From IMG/VR virus record IMGVR_UViG_3300025889_000484, positions 1 to 33,675 of that record: a stretch of DNA of 33,675 nt, one strand, 5' to 3'. Both the position numbers and the translations under genes were made by a program. Each line of letters starts with the position of its first letter. Positions within the stretch are counted from its first letter, which is position 1. This DNA comes from a virus. Under the pieces are notes generated by a model. That model was not told where the DNA came from, did no database searches, and saw nothing but the letters and a program-made list of their open reading frames with translations. Below, piece by piece: positions 818 through 33,675 of this stretch.

Positions 818-1044
818 ATAAGTCAGAACGCGCTCGGACACTGATCGGTGATGAATGGTTCACTGGGGAAATAGACTGGATTCGATCAAGTCTTATCAGT
901 GTTATCACCAACTCAGACGAGACAGATATTGACATTCGAGAGAGAGCCTATTTGAAACTTCGCTTACTTGATGAAATAATGGGGCACTTTTCCTCAATAG
1001 CTTCTGAAGATCAATTGATCAAGAAGCGGTGGAAAATCCTCTGA
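814..1044 (+). CDS. Small conserved phage head-region protein (unknown function)
   Basis: A 76-residue, charged, helical protein. It starts at a GTG that overlaps the TGA of the upstream gene (GTGA), a sign of translational coupling. There are no Cys pairs, signal peptide or membrane segment. Small acidic proteins of this size often sit between portal and scaffold genes in podoviruses, but I do not recognise a named family. Short helices around residues 5-30 and 40-70 would suit a small virion accessory or assembly factor; that is inference from position only. Confidence 0.7.
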   Translation: MNKSERARTLIGDEWFTGEIDWIRSSLISVITNSDETDIDIRERAYLKLRLLDEIMGHFSSIASEDQLIKKRWKIL

Positions 1045-1049
1045 TGCGA

Positions 1050-1066
1050 GTCTGACGCTTTCAGAC
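1050..1066 (+). other. Intergenic hairpin before the scaffold gene
   Basis: GTCTGA, a five-base loop, then TCAGAC forms a 6-bp stem between the stop at 1044 and the next start at 1083. No T-run follows, so it is not an intrinsic terminator. It could be an mRNA processing or stability element, or chance. Confidence 0.35.
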
Positions 1067-1082
1067 AGAACTGAGGAACGAA

Positions 1083-2033
1083 ATGGCTGAGAACATGGCC
1101 CCGGAATCCGGGAATGTCTCAATGACGGTGAATGAAGCCGCAGGTGCGTTTTTGGGACTGATGGAGCCAACGGAAGCTGAACAAGCCGCCCCGGAAGCTC
1201 AAGACGAACCAGAACAAATCGAGGCGTCTGAACCTGAAGAAGTCGAGACCGAAGAAGCGCAGGAAGAAACCGCCCCGCAGCGATTCCGAGTGAAAGCCGC
1301 TGGTGAGGAACGGGAAGTCACCTTCGAGGAATTGGTTGATGGCTATCAGAAGGGGCTGGACTACACCAAGAAATCACAGACTCTTGCCGAGCAGCGTAAA
1401 GCTGTCGAAGCGGAGAGGCTGGCCGTAGATCAGGCCAAGCAAGCGCGGGATGCCTACGCGCAACGGCTGAATCTGATTGAAGAGTTCATCAGTAAACAAG
1501 ACACCGGGGAAAACCTCGAGGCGCTAAAAGAGGTTGACCCCATTGGTTACGCCGTCAAGGTAGCCGAGCGCACAGAGCGCGAGAAGCAGCTTGCGATGGT
1601 TCAGGCCGAGAAGCAGCGGATTGCTCAACAGCAAAACGCCGAGCGACAAGCCGAACTAGCCCAAGCCGTTCAGCGTGAAGCGCAGCGACTTGCGGAGGTG
1701 ATTCCCGATTTCGGACACCCTGAAAAGAGTACCGAGGTCAAGAAGATGGTTCGGGAGTTTGCCAAGTCCATCGGTTTTTCCGATCAGGAGTTGTCAAACG
1801 CTTACGATTCCCGAGCCGTTCAGGTTCTGTATATGGCCGCGCAATACGCGAAGTTGCAGAATCAGAAGCCTCAAGTGACCAAGAAAGTAAGCGAAGCGCC
1901 GAAAATGCTTCGTCCAGGCACGGCGGCAACCCAAAAGGTTGCAGCAGACGAGAATATCAAAAACGCCCATTCGCGGCTGAGGAAGTCTGGAAAAGTCTCC
2001 GACGCTGCTGCACTTTTTGAACGTCTACTCTAA
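1083..2033 (+). CDS. Putative capsid scaffolding protein
   Basis: A 316-residue protein placed directly before the major capsid gene, the usual scaffold position. The N-terminal 70 residues are strongly acidic (runs of Glu, Pro and Ala). A short folded element follows (RFRVKAAGEEREVTFEELV, about residues 67-85). Residues 105-200 are a long Glu/Gln/Lys/Arg coiled coil, and the C-terminus is basic and helical. This acidic-disordered plus coiled-coil layout matches phage scaffolds, which guide coat assembly and leave the procapsid. No catalytic protease motif is visible. The start ATG has a GAGGAACGAA-type ribosome site. The call rests on position and composition rather than on a diagnostic motif. 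Confidence 0.75.
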   Translation: MAENMAPESGNVSMTVNEAAGAFLGLMEPTEAEQAAPEAQDEPEQIEASEPEEVETEEAQEETAPQRFRVKAAGEEREVTFEELVDGYQKGLDYTKKSQTLAEQRKAVEAERLAVDQAKQARDAYAQRLNLIEEFISKQDTGENLEALKEVDPIGYAVKVAERTEREKQLAMVQAEKQRIAQQQNAERQAELAQAVQREAQRLAEVIPDFGHPEKSTEVKKMVREFAKSIGFSDQELSNAYDSRAVQVLYMAAQYAKLQNQKPQVTKKVSEAPKMLRPGTAATQKVAADENIKNAHSRLRKSGKVSDAAALFERLL

Positions 2034-2042
2034 GGAAAGATC

Positions 2043-2756
2043 ATGACCCAATTCCGTACCTATGCCGCCGTTGGTCTGCGCGAAGACCTGAGCGACATCA
2101 TCTATAACATCTCCCCCACCGATACGCCTTTCATGTCCTCTGTGGGCAAGACCAAGGCGACTGCCGTCTATCACGAGTGGCAGACTGACTCGCTGGCCGC
2201 TGCTGCTGCAAACGCCGCCGTTGAAGGTGCTGATGCGTCCACCGCGACTCTCAGCCCGACGACTCGCGTTGGCAACCGCACCCAGATCAGCCAGAAGACT
2301 GTCGGCGTGACCGGCACCCTGCAGGCTGTTGACAAGGCAGGCCGCAAGTCGGAACTGGCCTATCAACTGTCGAAGGCTTCGAGCGAGATCAAGCGCGACA
2401 TGGAGTTCACCTTCCTGAACAACACCGTTCAGAGCAACGGCTCGGCTGGTTCGACTGCCCGTGTTCTGGGTGGTCTTCAGACCTGGTTGGCAACGAACGG
2501 CGACTTCGGTTCGGGTGGCTCTGCTGGTGCTTCGGGCACGACTGCTCGTACCAACGGCACGAACCGCACCTTCACGGAAGACATCCTGAAGACGGTTGTG
2601 AAGGAAGTGTTCGAGTCCGGCGGTTCCCCGAAGGTGCTGATGGTCACGCCCGCTCACAAGCAGACCGTCTCCGCTTTTGCCGGTATCGCTGCACAGCGCT
2701 ATATGGCTCCGTCGGATGCCCCGACGACCATCATTGGCGCTGCCGACATCTACCTT
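2043..2756 (+). CDS. Major capsid protein, exon 1 (codons 1-238)
   Basis: Begins MTQFRTYAAVGLREDLSD with an AAGGAAAGATC ribosome site and sits right after the scaffold-like gene. The sequence resembles the DUF5309/SU10-type coat family: an N-terminal arm with ISPTDTPFMSS, then the region ending GAADIYL. The unspliced frame runs on only eight codons into intron sequence and stops at 2778-2780, which would truncate the coat. The exon ends exactly on a codon boundary (CTT at 2754-2756), and its last bases ACCTT pair with the intron guide GGGGT, with the expected U-G pair at the splice site. Joined to exon 2 it gives a 315-residue coat protein, a normal length for a HK97-fold capsid subunit. Confidence 0.9.
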
Positions 2757-3032
2757 AATGCTGGGGTCACCGTTCACTAAAGTGACGGAAGTAAACTAGG
2801 TGAATTCGGTGAAACTCTCAATCAGCCAACCGACTGGTGGAGACAATACCGAGCCAAGCCCGGAAACGGGAAGGTGTAACGACTAGAGGGAAACCTCGTA
2901 GAGCCAAGCGGCTCGAAGTGCCTAGCCCCTAACAGGTAAAGCTGAGGGTGAAGAGATAGTCTGATCTGTATGGCGACATACAGCAGCCAGAGATGGCGGG
3001 TAGGAAGTAGCGAATCCTACTGAACATTTTGG
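2757..3032 (+). ncRNA. Group I (IA-type) self-splicing intron in the capsid gene
   Basis: This 276-nt insert carries the conserved group I core. P4 pairs TTCGGT with ACCGA in the Q element (ATACCGAGCCAAGC). P6 is the hairpin CCCG-gaaa-CGGG. The R element is GTGTAACGACTA and the S element is AAGAGATAGTCT; their GACTA and TAGTC form P7. CTAGG upstream pairs with CCTAG to make P3. Two extra hairpins between P7 and P3, GAGG-gaaa-CCTC and GAGCC-aagc-GGCTC, are P7.1 and P7.2, the hallmark of subgroup IA. P8 is CCCT/AGGG, and P9 is CTGTATG-gcga-CATACAG with a GNRA loop. P1 (ACCTT/GGGGT) and P10 (TGCT with AGCG of exon 2) fix both splice sites, and the last base is G. No endonuclease gene is inside. 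Confidence 0.93.
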
Positions 3033-3266
3033 AGCGATTTCGGTTCGATGAGCGTTGTGCCCAACCGCTTCATGCTGTCGGGCAACTCCGCAAACGAAGT
3101 GGCCTTCGTGCTTGACCCCGAGTACGCTGCTGTGGCGTATCTGCGTCCCTTCCAGACCATTGAACTGGCGAAGAACGGTGACGCTGACCGCACCCAGTTG
3201 CTGGTGGAATACACGCTAGAGGTGAAAAATGAAAGTGCACACGGCATCTGCGCCGACCTTTCTTAA
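3033..3266 (+). CDS. Major capsid protein, exon 2 (77 codons plus stop)
   Basis: Exon 2 begins AGC GAT TTC, giving SDFGSMSVVPNRFM, which continues exon 1 without a gap. It then reads through the coat C-terminal domain (LDPEYAAVAYLRPFQTIELA, then QLLVEYTLEVKNESAHG) to the TAA at 3264-3266. Translation starting at the internal ATG (3048) would give only a 72-residue fragment that lacks the first strands and has no ribosome site of its own. Its function is therefore expected only after splicing. Confidence 0.9.
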   Translation, partial: SDFGSMSVVPNRFMLSGNSANEVAFVLDPEYAAVAYLRPFQTIELAKNGDADRTQLLVEYTLEVKNESAHGICADLS

Positions 3267-3651: not shown

Positions 3652-4271
3652 TGGCCATCGCTACCTACTCAGACCTCAAGACCGCTGTTGCCGACTATCT
3701 GGCGCGGTCTGATCTGACCACCAAGATTCCTGACTTCATCACATTCGCAGAGAACCGTCTTCGTCGGGATTTGCGGATTCGTCAGATGCTCAAGCTGGTC
3801 AATGGCGTCACCACGGCTGGTGATGCAACATTTTCAATACCAGCCGACTTCCTGGAGATGCGTGATATTCATCTGAACACGACTCCGAATCGGACTCTGG
3901 AGTACCTTGCTCCGAACATCTTTTACCGCAACGCAGACGCGACGACGACTGGAGTTCCAAGCAAGTACACGCTTCTTGCAGGCGATTTCCAGTTCGCCAA
4001 AATTCCTGACGACGCCTACAACCTTCGGATGCTGTACTACGCAGCGCCCACTTATCTGAGCGATTCCAACACGTCAAACGTATTCCTGGCCAACTGCTCA
4101 GATGCATTGCTCTACGCCTCTCTTGGAGAGGCAGAGCCGTACATCATGAATGATGAGCGACTGGCGACTTGGGCGGCTCTCTATCAGAGGGCAATCGACT
4201 CTATCAATACCTCAGATGATCGGGGAGAATACGCTGGTGTTCCCCTGACGATGACACTTGCACGGAGATAA
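3651..4271 (+). CDS. Head-tail adaptor protein
   Basis: A 206-residue protein beginning MAIATYSDLKTAVADYLARS, which I recognise as the pattern of phage adaptor proteins (SU10/gp6-like) that form the ring under the portal. Further family-like segments are FITFAENRLRRDLRIRQM and the C-terminal helical part with QRAIDSINTSDDRGEYAG. The start is the ATG at 3651, with GGAGG five bases upstream; a TTG one codon earlier is less likely. It lies in the head-completion block between the coat and the tail-region proteins. The function is from family memory plus gene order. Confidence 0.8.
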   Translation: MAIATYSDLKTAVADYLARSDLTTKIPDFITFAENRLRRDLRIRQMLKLVNGVTTAGDATFSIPADFLEMRDIHLNTTPNRTLEYLAPNIFYRNADATTTGVPSKYTLLAGDFQFAKIPDDAYNLRMLYYAAPTYLSDSNTSNVFLANCSDALLYASLGEAEPYIMNDERLATWAALYQRAIDSINTSDDRGEYAGVPLTMTLARR

Positions 4272-4273
4272 CA

Positions 4274-4660
4274 ATGTCCGAATTCAGCAACTATCTTGAG
4301 AATGCGCTTGTCAACGCAGTTCTCCGAGCCACTTCCTACACCAGTCCGACGACGGTCTATGTGGCGCTCTACACCACAGACCCGACTGATGCAGACACCG
4401 GAACCGAGGTAAGTGGAAACGCTTATGCTCGTCAATCGGTGACGTTCTCTGCCCCGTCAAACGGCGCGACCTCGAACTCGGCTGCGGTGGAGTTTCCACA
4501 AGCCACGGGTTCGTGGGGAACGGTGGCCTATATCGGTCTTCGGGATGCGTCTACTGGTGGGAATCTGCTGTTCCACACGCCGCTAGATGCTTCTAAAACC
4601 ATCGCCACGGGTGATGTGTTCCGCATCGCTGCTGGGTCGCTGACAGTCACGTTGACGTAA
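4274..4660 (+). CDS. Small structural protein (tail/head-completion type)
   Basis: A 128-residue protein starting MSEFSNYLENALVNAVLR and followed by TSPTTVYVALYTTDPTDAD. This pattern recurs in small phage virion proteins of siphoviruses and podoviruses near adaptor genes. It is rich in beta-prone Thr, Ser, Val and Gly, and no enzymatic motif is visible. It overlaps the next gene by one base (TAATG). It probably decorates or completes the neck or tail; I cannot say which. Confidence 0.7.
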   Translation: MSEFSNYLENALVNAVLRATSYTSPTTVYVALYTTDPTDADTGTEVSGNAYARQSVTFSAPSNGATSNSAAVEFPQATGSWGTVAYIGLRDASTGGNLLFHTPLDASKTIATGDVFRIAAGSLTVTLT

Positions 4661-5547
4661 TGGCCGATCTGCTCCCGCCGTGGACAATAGACTCCCTTGA
4701 TAACCTCAAGGCGAGTCTAGATGATCTGACGCTGACGCTTGATTCTCCGCTTTACGAGACAAGCGTTACACGGTGGGATGCATACGGATCAGTCTCTGCA
4801 AGTGCGAGTGTCACAGCAGACGGGACAAGGGTTCAGTTTGCTGCGGCATCCATAACCGCCAGTGCATCGGCAACGGCAGACGGCACTCGAGTCCAATTCG
4901 GATCGGGTGCGATAGACGCATCGGCGGCGGTCACCGCAAGTGCCCAAATCGTCAAGGACGCATCAGCGCAGATCACCGCATCTGCGACTGTCACGGCTCT
5001 TGGTGGGCTGGTTATCGATGGAGTTGCCCAGGTTTCGGGATCAGCTTCTGTTACTTGTTCTGCATCTCCGATATTTGCTGGTGTTGCTGCGATTGATGCG
5101 TCAGCGAGTGTCTCGGCGTCTGGCCAGATCGTTCTTGGTGGGTCTGCTGCGATCACGGCAAGTGCTGCGGTTAGTGCGGCAGGAATCATCGTCAAGGACG
5201 CATCGGCACAGATTTCCGGTGTCGCAACAGTCACTGCCAACGGTGGACTTGTCGCAAGCGCTCAAGCGCAAGTGACCGCATCTGCTGAGGTGTCTTGTTA
5301 TGCGAATGCAACCTTCTCTGCTTTTGCGTCTGTTTCAGGAGTGGCGACTGTCACTTGTGACGGATCGAAGCAAGGCCAAGAGTGGAGTGATGTGGTGGTT
5401 CCCGTTGATACGTGGACGGTTGTCACCGACGTTGAGACATCCTGGACGGTTGTGGCCAACGACGAGACCGCATGGACTGATGTAACAGACACCGCCACGA
5501 GTTGGACTCCTGTGGCCGCTGGTGGTGGAACATGGTCGAGGGTTTGA
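4660..5547 (+). CDS. Tandem-repeat tail-region protein (20-residue and 10-residue repeats)
   Basis: A 295-residue protein with three parts. Residues 1-43 are unique. Residues 44-236 hold ten repeats of exactly 20 residues with the pattern [small]-[I/V]-x-[A/G]-S-A-x-V-[T/S]-A, followed by a variable half that often contains G-x-x-V. Residues 250-295 hold five repeats of 10 residues with W-T-x-V at the same place (TWTVV, SWTVV, AWTDV, SWTPV, TWSRV). No charged active site is visible. Regular 20-residue Val/Ile/Ala repeats suggest a beta-solenoid or fibrous rod, and the W-T units may be a separate beta region. The gene lies between the adaptor-type genes and the stabilisation-like protein, so a tail or appendage role is likely but not known. 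Confidence 0.75.
   Translation: MADLLPPWTIDSLDNLKASLDDLTLTLDSPLYETSVTRWDAYGSVSASASVTADGTRVQFAAASITASASATADGTRVQFGSGAIDASAAVTASAQIVKDASAQITASATVTALGGLVIDGVAQVSGSASVTCSASPIFAGVAAIDASASVSASGQIVLGGSAAITASAAVSAAGIIVKDASAQISGVATVTANGGLVASAQAQVTASAEVSCYANATFSAFASVSGVATVTCDGSKQGQEWSDVVVPVDTWTVVTDVETSWTVVANDETAWTDVTDTATSWTPVAAGGGTWSRV
4789..5367 (+). repeat. Ten 60-bp coding repeats (20 residues each)
   Basis: The protein repeats are exactly 60 bp long; nine are full and the tenth is 13 residues. Units 3 and 7 are especially close (both end IVKDASA), as are 1 and 2 (both carry TADGTRVQF). This suggests stepwise duplication with later drift. Confidence 0.85.
5407..5544 (+). repeat. Five 30-bp coding repeats (W-T-x-V units)
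   Basis: Four full 10-residue units and one partial unit make up the extreme C-terminus of the repeat protein. Trp is fixed at position 3 and Thr at position 4 (Ser in the last unit). The period is exactly half that of the upstream 20-residue repeats. Confidence 0.8.
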
Positions 5548-27476: not shown

Positions 27477-28733
27477 TTGAACATCGAAAAGATCGACATC
27501 TCCGTGCTGATCCCATACGCACGGAACGCAAGAACCCACAGCGACGAGCAGATCGCCCAGATCGCCGGAAGCATCAAAGAGTTTGGGTTCAACAACCCTG
27601 TCCTGATCGACAAGGACAACGGGGTTATAGCGGGGCATGGGAGACTGGCTGCGGCAAGGAAGCTGGGCCTCAATGAAGTCCCCTGCATCCGTCTAGAGCA
27701 TCTCACCGAGACCCAGAGGAAAGCCTACATCCTGGCAGATAACAGGATCGCCCTAAATTCAGGGTGGGAGGCCGAACTTCTAAGCCTGGAGCTAAGTGAG
27801 CTTCTGGATGGCGGGGTCAACCTGGAAAGCCTAGGTTTCGACGCAGACGAGATCGACGCCCTGCTGAACAAGATAGAACCGACAGAAGGGCTGACGGACG
27901 AGGACGCAACGCCGGAAGTTCCAGAGGAGCCAGTCACAAAGCCTGGGGATGTTTGGATTCTCGGCAAGCATCGTCTGATGTGCGGGGACAGCACTAGCAT
28001 CGAACAGGCAGAAAAGCTCATGGGCGGCGTTAAAGGAGACATGGTTTTTACTGATCCTCCATATAACGTTGCGTACGAAGGTCGCGGAGAAAAAAATAAG
28101 CTAGGGCCGATCAAGAACGACAATATGTCGGATGAGTCCTTTGAGCAGTTTTGCCGGGATGTTTTTGCGACTTATCACTCAATCATGAAGCCGCTTGCCT
28201 GCATTTATGTCTGTCATCCAGACAGTCAGACCGCACCTAAGCTTGCTTTTGAGAAGACATTCGGAGAGTTATTCAAGAAATCATCAACGGTTATTTGGGT
28301 CAAGCAATCGGCTGGGATGGGCTGGCAGGACTATCGTGCACAGCATGAGCCAATCCTTTATGGGTGGAAGGAAGGCTCAGGCAAACATTTTTATTGCGGG
28401 GACAGATCAAAGACAACGGTCTGGAAGATTGGCCGCGATGCACAAGCCAGCTATGTGCACCCAACTCAGAAGCCAGTTGCCTTGCCGGAAGAGGCTATAA
28501 ACAACAGCAGCAAAGGCGAAGACGTCATCATTGACCTGTTTGGCGGCTCTGGCTCCACACTCATTGCCTGCGAGAAGACCGGACGAGTCAACCGAAGCAT
28601 GGAGCTTGACCCAAAGTATTGCGATGTCATAGTAAAACGCTGGCAGGACTTCACAGGCAAGCAAGCAACACTAGAGTCAACAGGCCAAACCTATAGCGAG
28701 CTTACCAATAAATCGGAGATACAAAATGGGTAG
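27477..28733 (+). CDS. ParB-like domain fused to a DNA methyltransferase
   Basis: A 418-residue protein. The start is TTG 27477, six bases after AAGGAG. Residues 1-90 are a ParB/Srx-type domain (ARTHSDEQIAQIAGSIKEFG, then VIAGHGRLAAARKLGL and ILADNRIA). A linker of about 40 acidic residues leads to a beta-class amino-methyltransferase: FTDPPYNV (catalytic motif, near residue 195) comes before FGGSGSTLIACE (AdoMet-binding, near 350). It probably modifies adenine N6 or cytosine N4 to hide phage DNA from restriction or to mark it for packaging. No partner nuclease is nearby. The stop overlaps terS. Confidence 0.9.
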   Translation: MNIEKIDISVLIPYARNARTHSDEQIAQIAGSIKEFGFNNPVLIDKDNGVIAGHGRLAAARKLGLNEVPCIRLEHLTETQRKAYILADNRIALNSGWEAELLSLELSELLDGGVNLESLGFDADEIDALLNKIEPTEGLTDEDATPEVPEEPVTKPGDVWILGKHRLMCGDSTSIEQAEKLMGGVKGDMVFTDPPYNVAYEGRGEKNKLGPIKNDNMSDESFEQFCRDVFATYHSIMKPLACIYVCHPDSQTAPKLAFEKTFGELFKKSSTVIWVKQSAGMGWQDYRAQHEPILYGWKEGSGKHFYCGDRSKTTVWKIGRDAQASYVHPTQKPVALPEEAINNSSKGEDVIIDLFGGSGSTLIACEKTGRVNRSMELDPKYCDVIVKRWQDFTGKQATLESTGQTYSELTNKSEIQNG

Positions 28734-32456: not shown

Positions 32457-33675
32457 ATGAGAACTGGGACAACGATTTCAGGTGGACTGTTGGTGCGCTC
32501 TGACAATGAGCTAACCCGATCCGAGAAGATCGCCAATCTCCTAGCAAACGCTGACCCGTCAGCCCGTGCAGGGATGATCCAGTCTTATCGAAACAACCCG
32601 AATATTCCTGCTGATTTGCTTGCCGAAGGGCTAGACCTTGCCAAATCGCTTGGCGTATCAACGGAGCCGCAAATGGCCACACAAGCACAGATCACTGATC
32701 TCTATCGCCAGTATCTTGGGCGAGAGCCTGATGCGGCAGGACTGAAGTTCTACTCAAATCCTGACTTCAGTCTTGATCTGATCCGAAGCGACATCGCAAA
32801 CAGTGCAGAGGCGCAATCGTATGCACAAGCGCAGGCGGTAGCAGCACAAAGGCAAGCCGAGATTGATGCCCGTGAAGCCGCCGCCACCGCTGGTGCAGGG
32901 GTTGGTGCCCCGACTGGTGTTACGCCCACATCAAATCTTCTTCCTGCTGACATAGCTTGGTTGTCTCAAGGGAAGGGGATGTTCGGGAATCCGCTTTATT
33001 ACGATCCGACTTCCCCGATCACTTTGGCGTTGCAGGCAGGTATTGGTGTTCCTGGCACTGATTTCCTTGTAAGTGCCGCATCCAATGCTCTTGGATTGAC
33101 TGAGGCGTCAATGATCGCCCAAGATGCCAAGTCGCTTGCTAATGCTGGGCTTACTGAAGACCAAATCATTAGCACGTTGCAGGCAAGCGGAGTTCCGTCT
33201 AGCGCCGCTGTTCAGGCCGCTGGTGATGCCGCATCAGGCGCATCAACATTCGATATTGCTCAGAACATCTCTGGAACAACGTATAAGGGTGGAACAACCG
33301 CTGCGACTTCGTTGCCGTCAGTCCCTGCTTCAACGGGAGCGACAAGCGGCGTTACTGGGACTCCTGTTCAGGTCACGGGAACTGGTGGTTTATTGACCAC
33401 CCCGGCCGCATCTGCTGTAACGGGTGCAACGGGTTTGCTTGGTGCAATCCAGCCGTCAGAAGGCGGACAAGTTCAAGTAACTGGAACAACTCAACCCGCG
33501 ACAACCGGATTGCTTGGTGGCACTAGCTCAGTTGCTCCTGCTGTTACTGCTGGAGCGACAACCGGAACAGAAGGAACCCAGACAGTCAATCTTCAGGCAA
33601 AGCGTATTGCTGACGTAAACAGCCTGTATCAGACGATTCTTGGACGAGTTCCTGATGCTGCTGGACTTGCGTTCT
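32457..33675 (+). CDS. DUF4214-type virion-region protein, 5' part (cut by the window edge)
   Basis: ATG 32457 lies three bases after the portal stop. The frame stays open to the window end, 406 codons. After a helical start (MRTGTTISGGLLVRSDNELT) comes a DUF4214 module near residues 79-120 (LYRQYLGREPDAAG, then FYSNPDFSLDLIRSDIANSA). Next is a folded region with YYDPTSPITLALQAGIGVPG and ASMIAQDAKSLANAGLTED. A Thr/Gly-rich linker (TGATSGVTGTPVQVTGTGGL) leads into a second DUF4214 module that is cut off. It continues in the gene at the left edge. DUF4214 modules occur in secreted and adhesive proteins; a virion role here is inferred from position. Confidence 0.85.
   Translation, partial: MRTGTTISGGLLVRSDNELTRSEKIANLLANADPSARAGMIQSYRNNPNIPADLLAEGLDLAKSLGVSTEPQMATQAQITDLYRQYLGREPDAAGLKFYSNPDFSLDLIRSDIANSAEAQSYAQAQAVAAQRQAEIDAREAAATAGAGVGAPTGVTPTSNLLPADIAWLSQGKGMFGNPLYYDPTSPITLALQAGIGVPGTDFLVSAASNALGLTEASMIAQDAKSLANAGLTEDQIISTLQASGVPSSAAVQAAGDAASGASTFDIAQNISGTTYKGGTTAATSLPSVPASTGATSGVTGTPVQVTGTGGLLTTPAASAVTGATGLLGAIQPSEGGQVQVTGTTQPATTGLLGGTSSVAPAVTAGATTGTEGTQTVNLQAKRIADVNSLYQTILGRVPDAAGLAF
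33550..33675 (+). repeat. 126-bp direct repeat, right copy
   Basis: Identical to 24-149. The preceding 16 bases (33534-33549) differ from the left copy by silent codon changes and by lacking two codons. If joined here, the circle would be 33526 bp, counting only bases 24-33549. Confidence 0.9.

Follow-up and report, generated by a model that had tools for sequence, protein, structure and literature searches.

An endonuclease-free group I intron at a conserved site in the major capsid gene of an uncultured phage, and related introns in other phage capsid genes

The DNA analysed here (the window, 33,675 nt at its full length) is the genome of an uncultured phage, the ends of which overlap by a 126-bp direct repeat (24-149 = 33550-33675). 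The join of these ends is spanned by two other contigs and the genome therefore maps as a circle of ~33.5 kb; window bases 1-23 have no support from the two spanning contigs. A 418-aa DNA methyltransferase with a ParB-like N-terminal domain (phrog_498) is encoded at 27477-28730 on the plus strand. Moreover, among the 142 small ORFs of the window one matches P22 Cro (8.3e-11) and another YdaS (2.3e-6), a hint of a temperate-type switch in this phage.

The major capsid gene lies on the plus strand and is interrupted. Its first frame (2043-2780) ends ~24 nt inside an insert and a second frame gives the C-terminus, as a preliminary description made from the letters alone had noticed. Joining the flanks yields a 315-aa SU10-type major capsid protein that matches SU10_MCP (PF17236) at 6e-103 and phrog_1328 (major head protein) at 3.8e-112, so the comparison with coat families proposed in that description upheld its reading of the gene. 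With PF17236 matched on the joined protein and the junction placed by homology, exon 1 spans 2043-2755 and ends with the first two bases of codon 238, and exon 2 (3032-3266) runs from the last base of that codon to the stop codon. In the unspliced message translation ends after 245 codons at an in-frame stop codon (2778-2780). The intron-free relatives that it had likewise proposed to seek do exist: with up to 95% amino acid identity to the window capsid, they lack the insert, and their alignment breaks off at 2755 and picks up again at 3033-3036. A single uninterrupted capsid chain is kept in more than 70 close relatives. That the interruption is an assembly artefact or a chimaera is exceedingly improbable, given that the identical intron and flanks occur in three contigs from different datasets (the window and two further contigs of the same phage), two of which span the join of the window ends.

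The insert, 276 nt long and without an ORF, occupies 2756-3031 on the plus strand (alternatively 2757-3032) and was identified as a group I intron of the P7.1/P7.2 type (IA-like) from Rfam RF00028, junction comparison and the intron-free relatives. The RF00028 match, the only RNA family found by Rfam in the window, covers 2746-2983 (+) and scores 65.2 bits (E 1.4e-14), above the gathering score of 50 bits. An unconstrained minimum-energy fold yields P1, P2, P3, P4, P5, P6a, P7.1, P7.2, P8, P9 and a P9.1-like stem (z -2.76), into which the P7 pseudoknot, a perfect 5 bp, was put by hand. In P1 (2752-2767), ACCUU (2752-2756) pairs with the guide GGGGU (2763-2767), with U-G wobbles at the 5′ splice site; the terminal U2755 of the 5′ exon is paired to guide G2764, and the terminal base of the intron is G3031. 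P3 (2796-2801/2920-2925) encloses P4, P5, P6 and P6a over 2796-2925. P7 pairs GACUA (2881-2885) with UAGUC (2957-2961) and would form the guanosine site, whilst between P7 and P3 stand P7.1 (2886-2889/2894-2897) and P7.2 (2901-2905/2910-2914), the arrangement that marks subgroup IA. The P9 hairpin lies at 2966-2983 and the P9.1-like hairpin at 2999-3021; P10 in the window has just 3 bp.

Covariation was assessed over ten helices in 19 homologous introns, using an alignment built without regard to structure. Helix cells were paired in 95.3% of cases compared with 73.9% in shuffled alignments, both sides had changed in 33 of the 47 pairs, and the covariation score was 0.548, whereas shuffles gave 0.154 and slid helices no more than 0.109. 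P7, P7.1, P7.2 and P9 were paired in 100% of cells across all 19 introns, with double changes in 4/4 pairs of P7.1 and 4/5 of P7.2. Moreover, P1 carries a compensatory exon/guide change, the window having ACCUU/GGGGU and the relatives L118 and L120 ACGUU/GGCGU. These patterns indicate that the intron structure is under selection. The insert therefore has the conserved, covarying P3-P9 core of a group I intron, including the P7 pseudoknot; its removal restores the reading frame, and the corresponding site is empty in relatives. Earlier claims of a complete group I core, of the IA-like type and of an endonuclease-free intron were all borne out, as was the expectation of an RF00028 match over this region.

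The same elements bear on the notion that splicing has been lost, with the capsid produced as two polypeptides from 2043-2780 and 3048-3266. Translation could conceivably start separately for the second, as GGAG at 3031-3034 precedes the ATG at 3048. However, all core elements are intact and covarying, the terminal G and the splice-site U-G are kept, the intron is identical in both other contigs of this phage and the close relatives retain a single chain, whilst L118 and L120 have no GGAG at the corresponding place. We therefore regard this arrangement as very improbable and favour a gene that is spliced.

The exact junction required comparison with relatives, the last intron base being ambiguous from the window alone (G3031 or G3032). 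Both junctions keep the frame and give the same protein, codon 238 being CTG with an intron at 2756-3031 or CTT with one at 2757-3032, each leucine. All six relatives with an intron at the same site have C immediately before AGT, which puts the obligatory terminal G one base further upstream. Their exon reads ...TAC GT/C AGT GAT, where the slash marks the junction, and by homology that of the window reads ...TAC CT/G AGC GAT. Codon 238 at distinct empty sites is CTG in 37 of 132 cases and CTT in 0 of 132. Because of the terminal G in these relatives and the codon counts at empty sites, we set the intron at 2756-3031, which sequence comparison makes likely to be correct. The preliminary description was thus right about the 276-nt length and the in-frame junction, but its position of 2757-3032 probably lies one base too far downstream. 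The exon-exon junction 2755/3032 would read ...ATCTACCTG/AGCGATTTC, and the junction 2756/3033 of the preliminary description ...ATCTACCTT/AGCGATTTC. A search with a pattern fitting both junctions matched only other phages, with no spliced cDNA or intron-free copy of the window phage among the matches.

The group I intron of the window is real and almost certainly functional. We infer that the transcript folds and binds guanosine at P7, and that it would be cut after U2755, which P1 pairs with the internal guide. Exon 1 would then be joined to exon 2 and the intron ending in G3031 released, restoring codon 238 (CTG) and with it an intact 315-residue capsid protein. It is reasonable to suppose that capsid output depends on splicing efficiency. 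Few phage proteins are made in such quantity as the capsid protein, and splicing must therefore either be very efficient or limit virion output.

Related introns were sought by scanning IMG/VR with a stretch of the intron core (P7.2 to P3) picked without reference to the capsid. The first core pattern recovered 26 contigs, two of the window phage and 24 others, and in 24/24 of the others the major capsid gene contains the intron or introns; the capsid families concerned are phrog_1328 (SU10), phrog_267 and phrog_3437. With a second pattern, drawn from a different region of the core, the matches listed had mixed host genes, including RNA polymerase, ribonucleotide reductase and DNA polymerase, which rules out capsid genes as the only hosts. 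SU10_MCP was the most frequent family with this pattern (13/147 fragments among the matches listed), and we retain the view that capsid genes are a major host of related introns. A pattern for the 5′ exon/intron boundary gave, beyond the contigs of this phage, six chance matches in which the intron is absent, and a P3-region pattern matched this phage alone.

Profile search and exon mapping place the introns of SU10 capsid genes at three fixed sites, A near residue 25, B near 109 and C at 238, the last of which is occupied by the window intron. Site A is filled in 18 contigs, site B in 12, and site C in the phage of the window and six others (L118, L120, L248, L278, L310 and L313). In two contigs, L223 (7161-7339) and L241 (5377-5555, minus), a more distant SU10-type capsid gene has an intron of another lineage near site C; both contigs were excluded from the site C counts as the exact position of the intron is uncertain. 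The related capsid introns are ~260-330 nt long and none has room for an endonuclease. All three sites are filled, by three different intron lineages, in both L118 (5998-7457, minus) and L248 (272-1684). Outside the SU10 family, phrog_267-type major head genes have two group I introns each in L103 (1-606), L105 (646-1415) and L121 (11017-11773), and the phrog_3437-type major head gene of L102 has two or three (3933-4143, 4215-4426 and a weaker match near 4951). A first capsid survey ranked single uninterrupted segments and was biased towards intron-free genes; when it was redone with an uninterrupted middle exon, the sites were still mostly empty.

When 68 distinct intron cores were placed in a tree, the introns of site A formed one group (92/93), as did those of site B (99/99). 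The window intron and the six other site C introns form one clade (98/81), though the capsids of those six are ~48% identical to that of the window. L223 and L241, if scored as site C despite their uncertain position, fall elsewhere, so that site C as labelled needs two changes. The tree indicates that each site has its own intron lineage, these two doubtful contigs aside. On the capsid tree the minimum number of changes is 5 for site C, 7 for B and 3 for A, and the nearest (sister) capsids of the window are intron-free. With introns scattered in this way, gain or loss must be much faster than capsid divergence. L313 is filled at site C and L243 is empty, and their adjoining exons are 96.9% identical.

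The differences between these two alleles are concentrated at the insertion site. Over 300 bases on each side there are 20 differences in total, 8/25 positions differing from -18 to +7 compared with 12/575 elsewhere, and the window differs from an empty relative (L001) at the same positions -3, +2, +3, +4 and +7. These short runs of synonymous change are shared by filled sites and missing from near-identical empty ones. Such a flank haplotype is the mark expected of homing with co-conversion. Selection for P1/P10 pairing could instead explain -3 and +2 to +4, but it explains -9, -18 and +7 less easily. Near-identical filled and empty alleles such as L313 and L243, with their short converted flank, offer a natural system for the movement of endonuclease-free introns.

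Patchy presence at one site and seemingly co-converted flanks are features that the window intron has in common with homing introns; however, it encodes no homing endonuclease. HNH, HNH_3 and GIY-YIG profiles had no match in the circular genome of the window phage, and its 142 small ORFs, when scanned against Pfam (the one search that covered LAGLIDADG), included no convincing endonuclease. One HNH_5 match among these ORFs, at E 0.009, is about what chance would give. An HNH_3 gene was absent in 24/27 intron-bearing records searched, the window included (23/26 relatives), most of these records being fragments. The exceptions include L303, with a free-standing HNH_3 gene at 2025-2492, 365 nt downstream of the intron-bearing capsid gene, and L244, with one at 981-1481 (minus), ~1 kb downstream. 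Their products are candidate trans-acting homing enzymes. In T4-related phages, trans-acting endonucleases promote homing of ORF-less introns (reviewed in PMC3984707), and collaborative homing is discussed in PMC10448857. Since neither the intron nor the genome has a recognisable endonuclease, the cut was probably made in trans, and mobility of the window intron is probably driven in trans or lies in the past. The intron would have come from an intron-bearing phage, through homing or gene conversion that also converted a short flank, and collaborative homing with a trans endonuclease is the mechanism of spread that we would prefer. Taken together, we hold it very likely that 2756-3031 is a functional self-splicing IA-like intron, recently gained at site C, most likely through homing or gene conversion, with the cut probably made in trans. 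More tentatively, and with somewhat less than even confidence, we suggest that capsid genes of uncultured phages may be a standing niche for endonuclease-free, site-tied intron lineages, which would spread via trans endonucleases with short co-conversion tracts; the endonucleases, free-standing or from co-infecting phages, would cut empty capsid sites.

Alternatively, the intron may be kept as a regulator of capsid synthesis, as a splicing switch or through a truncated modulator of 245 residues, rather than as a merely near-neutral mobile element. Introns acting as GTP-sensitive switches have been discussed (PMC11878797), the truncated product would be defined by the stop codon that lies 24 nt inside the intron, and introns recur in capsid genes at three conserved sites. 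However, presence is patchy among phages ~96% identical at the exons, which near-neutral gain and loss fits better, and three unrelated sites point to opportunistic insertion. Regulation is thus an unlikely reason for its retention, and a near-neutral mobile element remains our preferred reading. Up to three introns in a single capsid gene make the demand on splicing efficiency explicit.

Group I introns of the P7.1/P7.2 (IA) type occur in the td, nrdB and nrdD genes of T4-like phages. The window intron shares with these the complete core, P7.1/P7.2, the terminal G, the splice-site U-G and insertion at a conserved coding motif, but its host gene is a capsid gene rather than one of nucleotide metabolism, and it has no ORF. 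A survey of Bastillevirinae emphasises that most split phage genes belong to nucleotide and DNA metabolism (PMC11878797), and the Jug phages have a mean of 18.5 group I introns per genome (PMC12363816). The preliminary description had called an intron of this kind unusual in a coat gene, which holds for cultured phages; yet a capsid-gene intron is documented in mycobacteriophage LittleE, and among uncultured phages related introns are common in such genes. The LittleE intron, most likely group I, also lies in a major capsid gene with intron-free relatives, and its splicing was proven by RT-PCR and N-terminal sequencing (Pope et al., PMC3706429). Unlike that of the window it is ~820 bp long, with a putative homing endonuclease gene, and sits in another capsid at another site. 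A 265-bp intron in a tail gene of mycobacteriophage BAKA, for which splicing was also shown, resembles the window intron in being endonuclease-free, of similar size and in a virion structural gene, though of the tail and not the capsid; the same paper cites an intron in the Tuc2009 capsid gene (PMC3706429).

The top-ranked match from a cultured phage is the nrd intron of Rhizobium phage RHph_N3_13 (MN988507), 72.6% identical over 196 nt of the intron, which differs in its ribonucleotide reductase host gene and in an annotated ORF between the two nrd parts. The six other site C introns share gene family, position to the base, lineage and absence of an ORF; they differ in core identity (~77-78%) and capsid, and all but some are accompanied by one or two further introns. 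Capsid-gene introns as a type are thus already known and the host gene is uncommon, the wider pattern being of more interest than the single case. Within the open-licence literature we found no description of endonuclease-free introns invading one capsid family repeatedly and at several sites. Reading such genes unspliced splits the capsid, and occasional misannotation of capsid genes in viromes is therefore probable. Lastly, ORFs beside group I introns match a PHROG named Srd anti-sigma factor in 9/147 fragments among the matches listed, and such an ORF lies at 1734-2180 of L090 (MN988507); the name may be misleading, and the products may be DNA-binding proteins or endonucleases carried by the introns.
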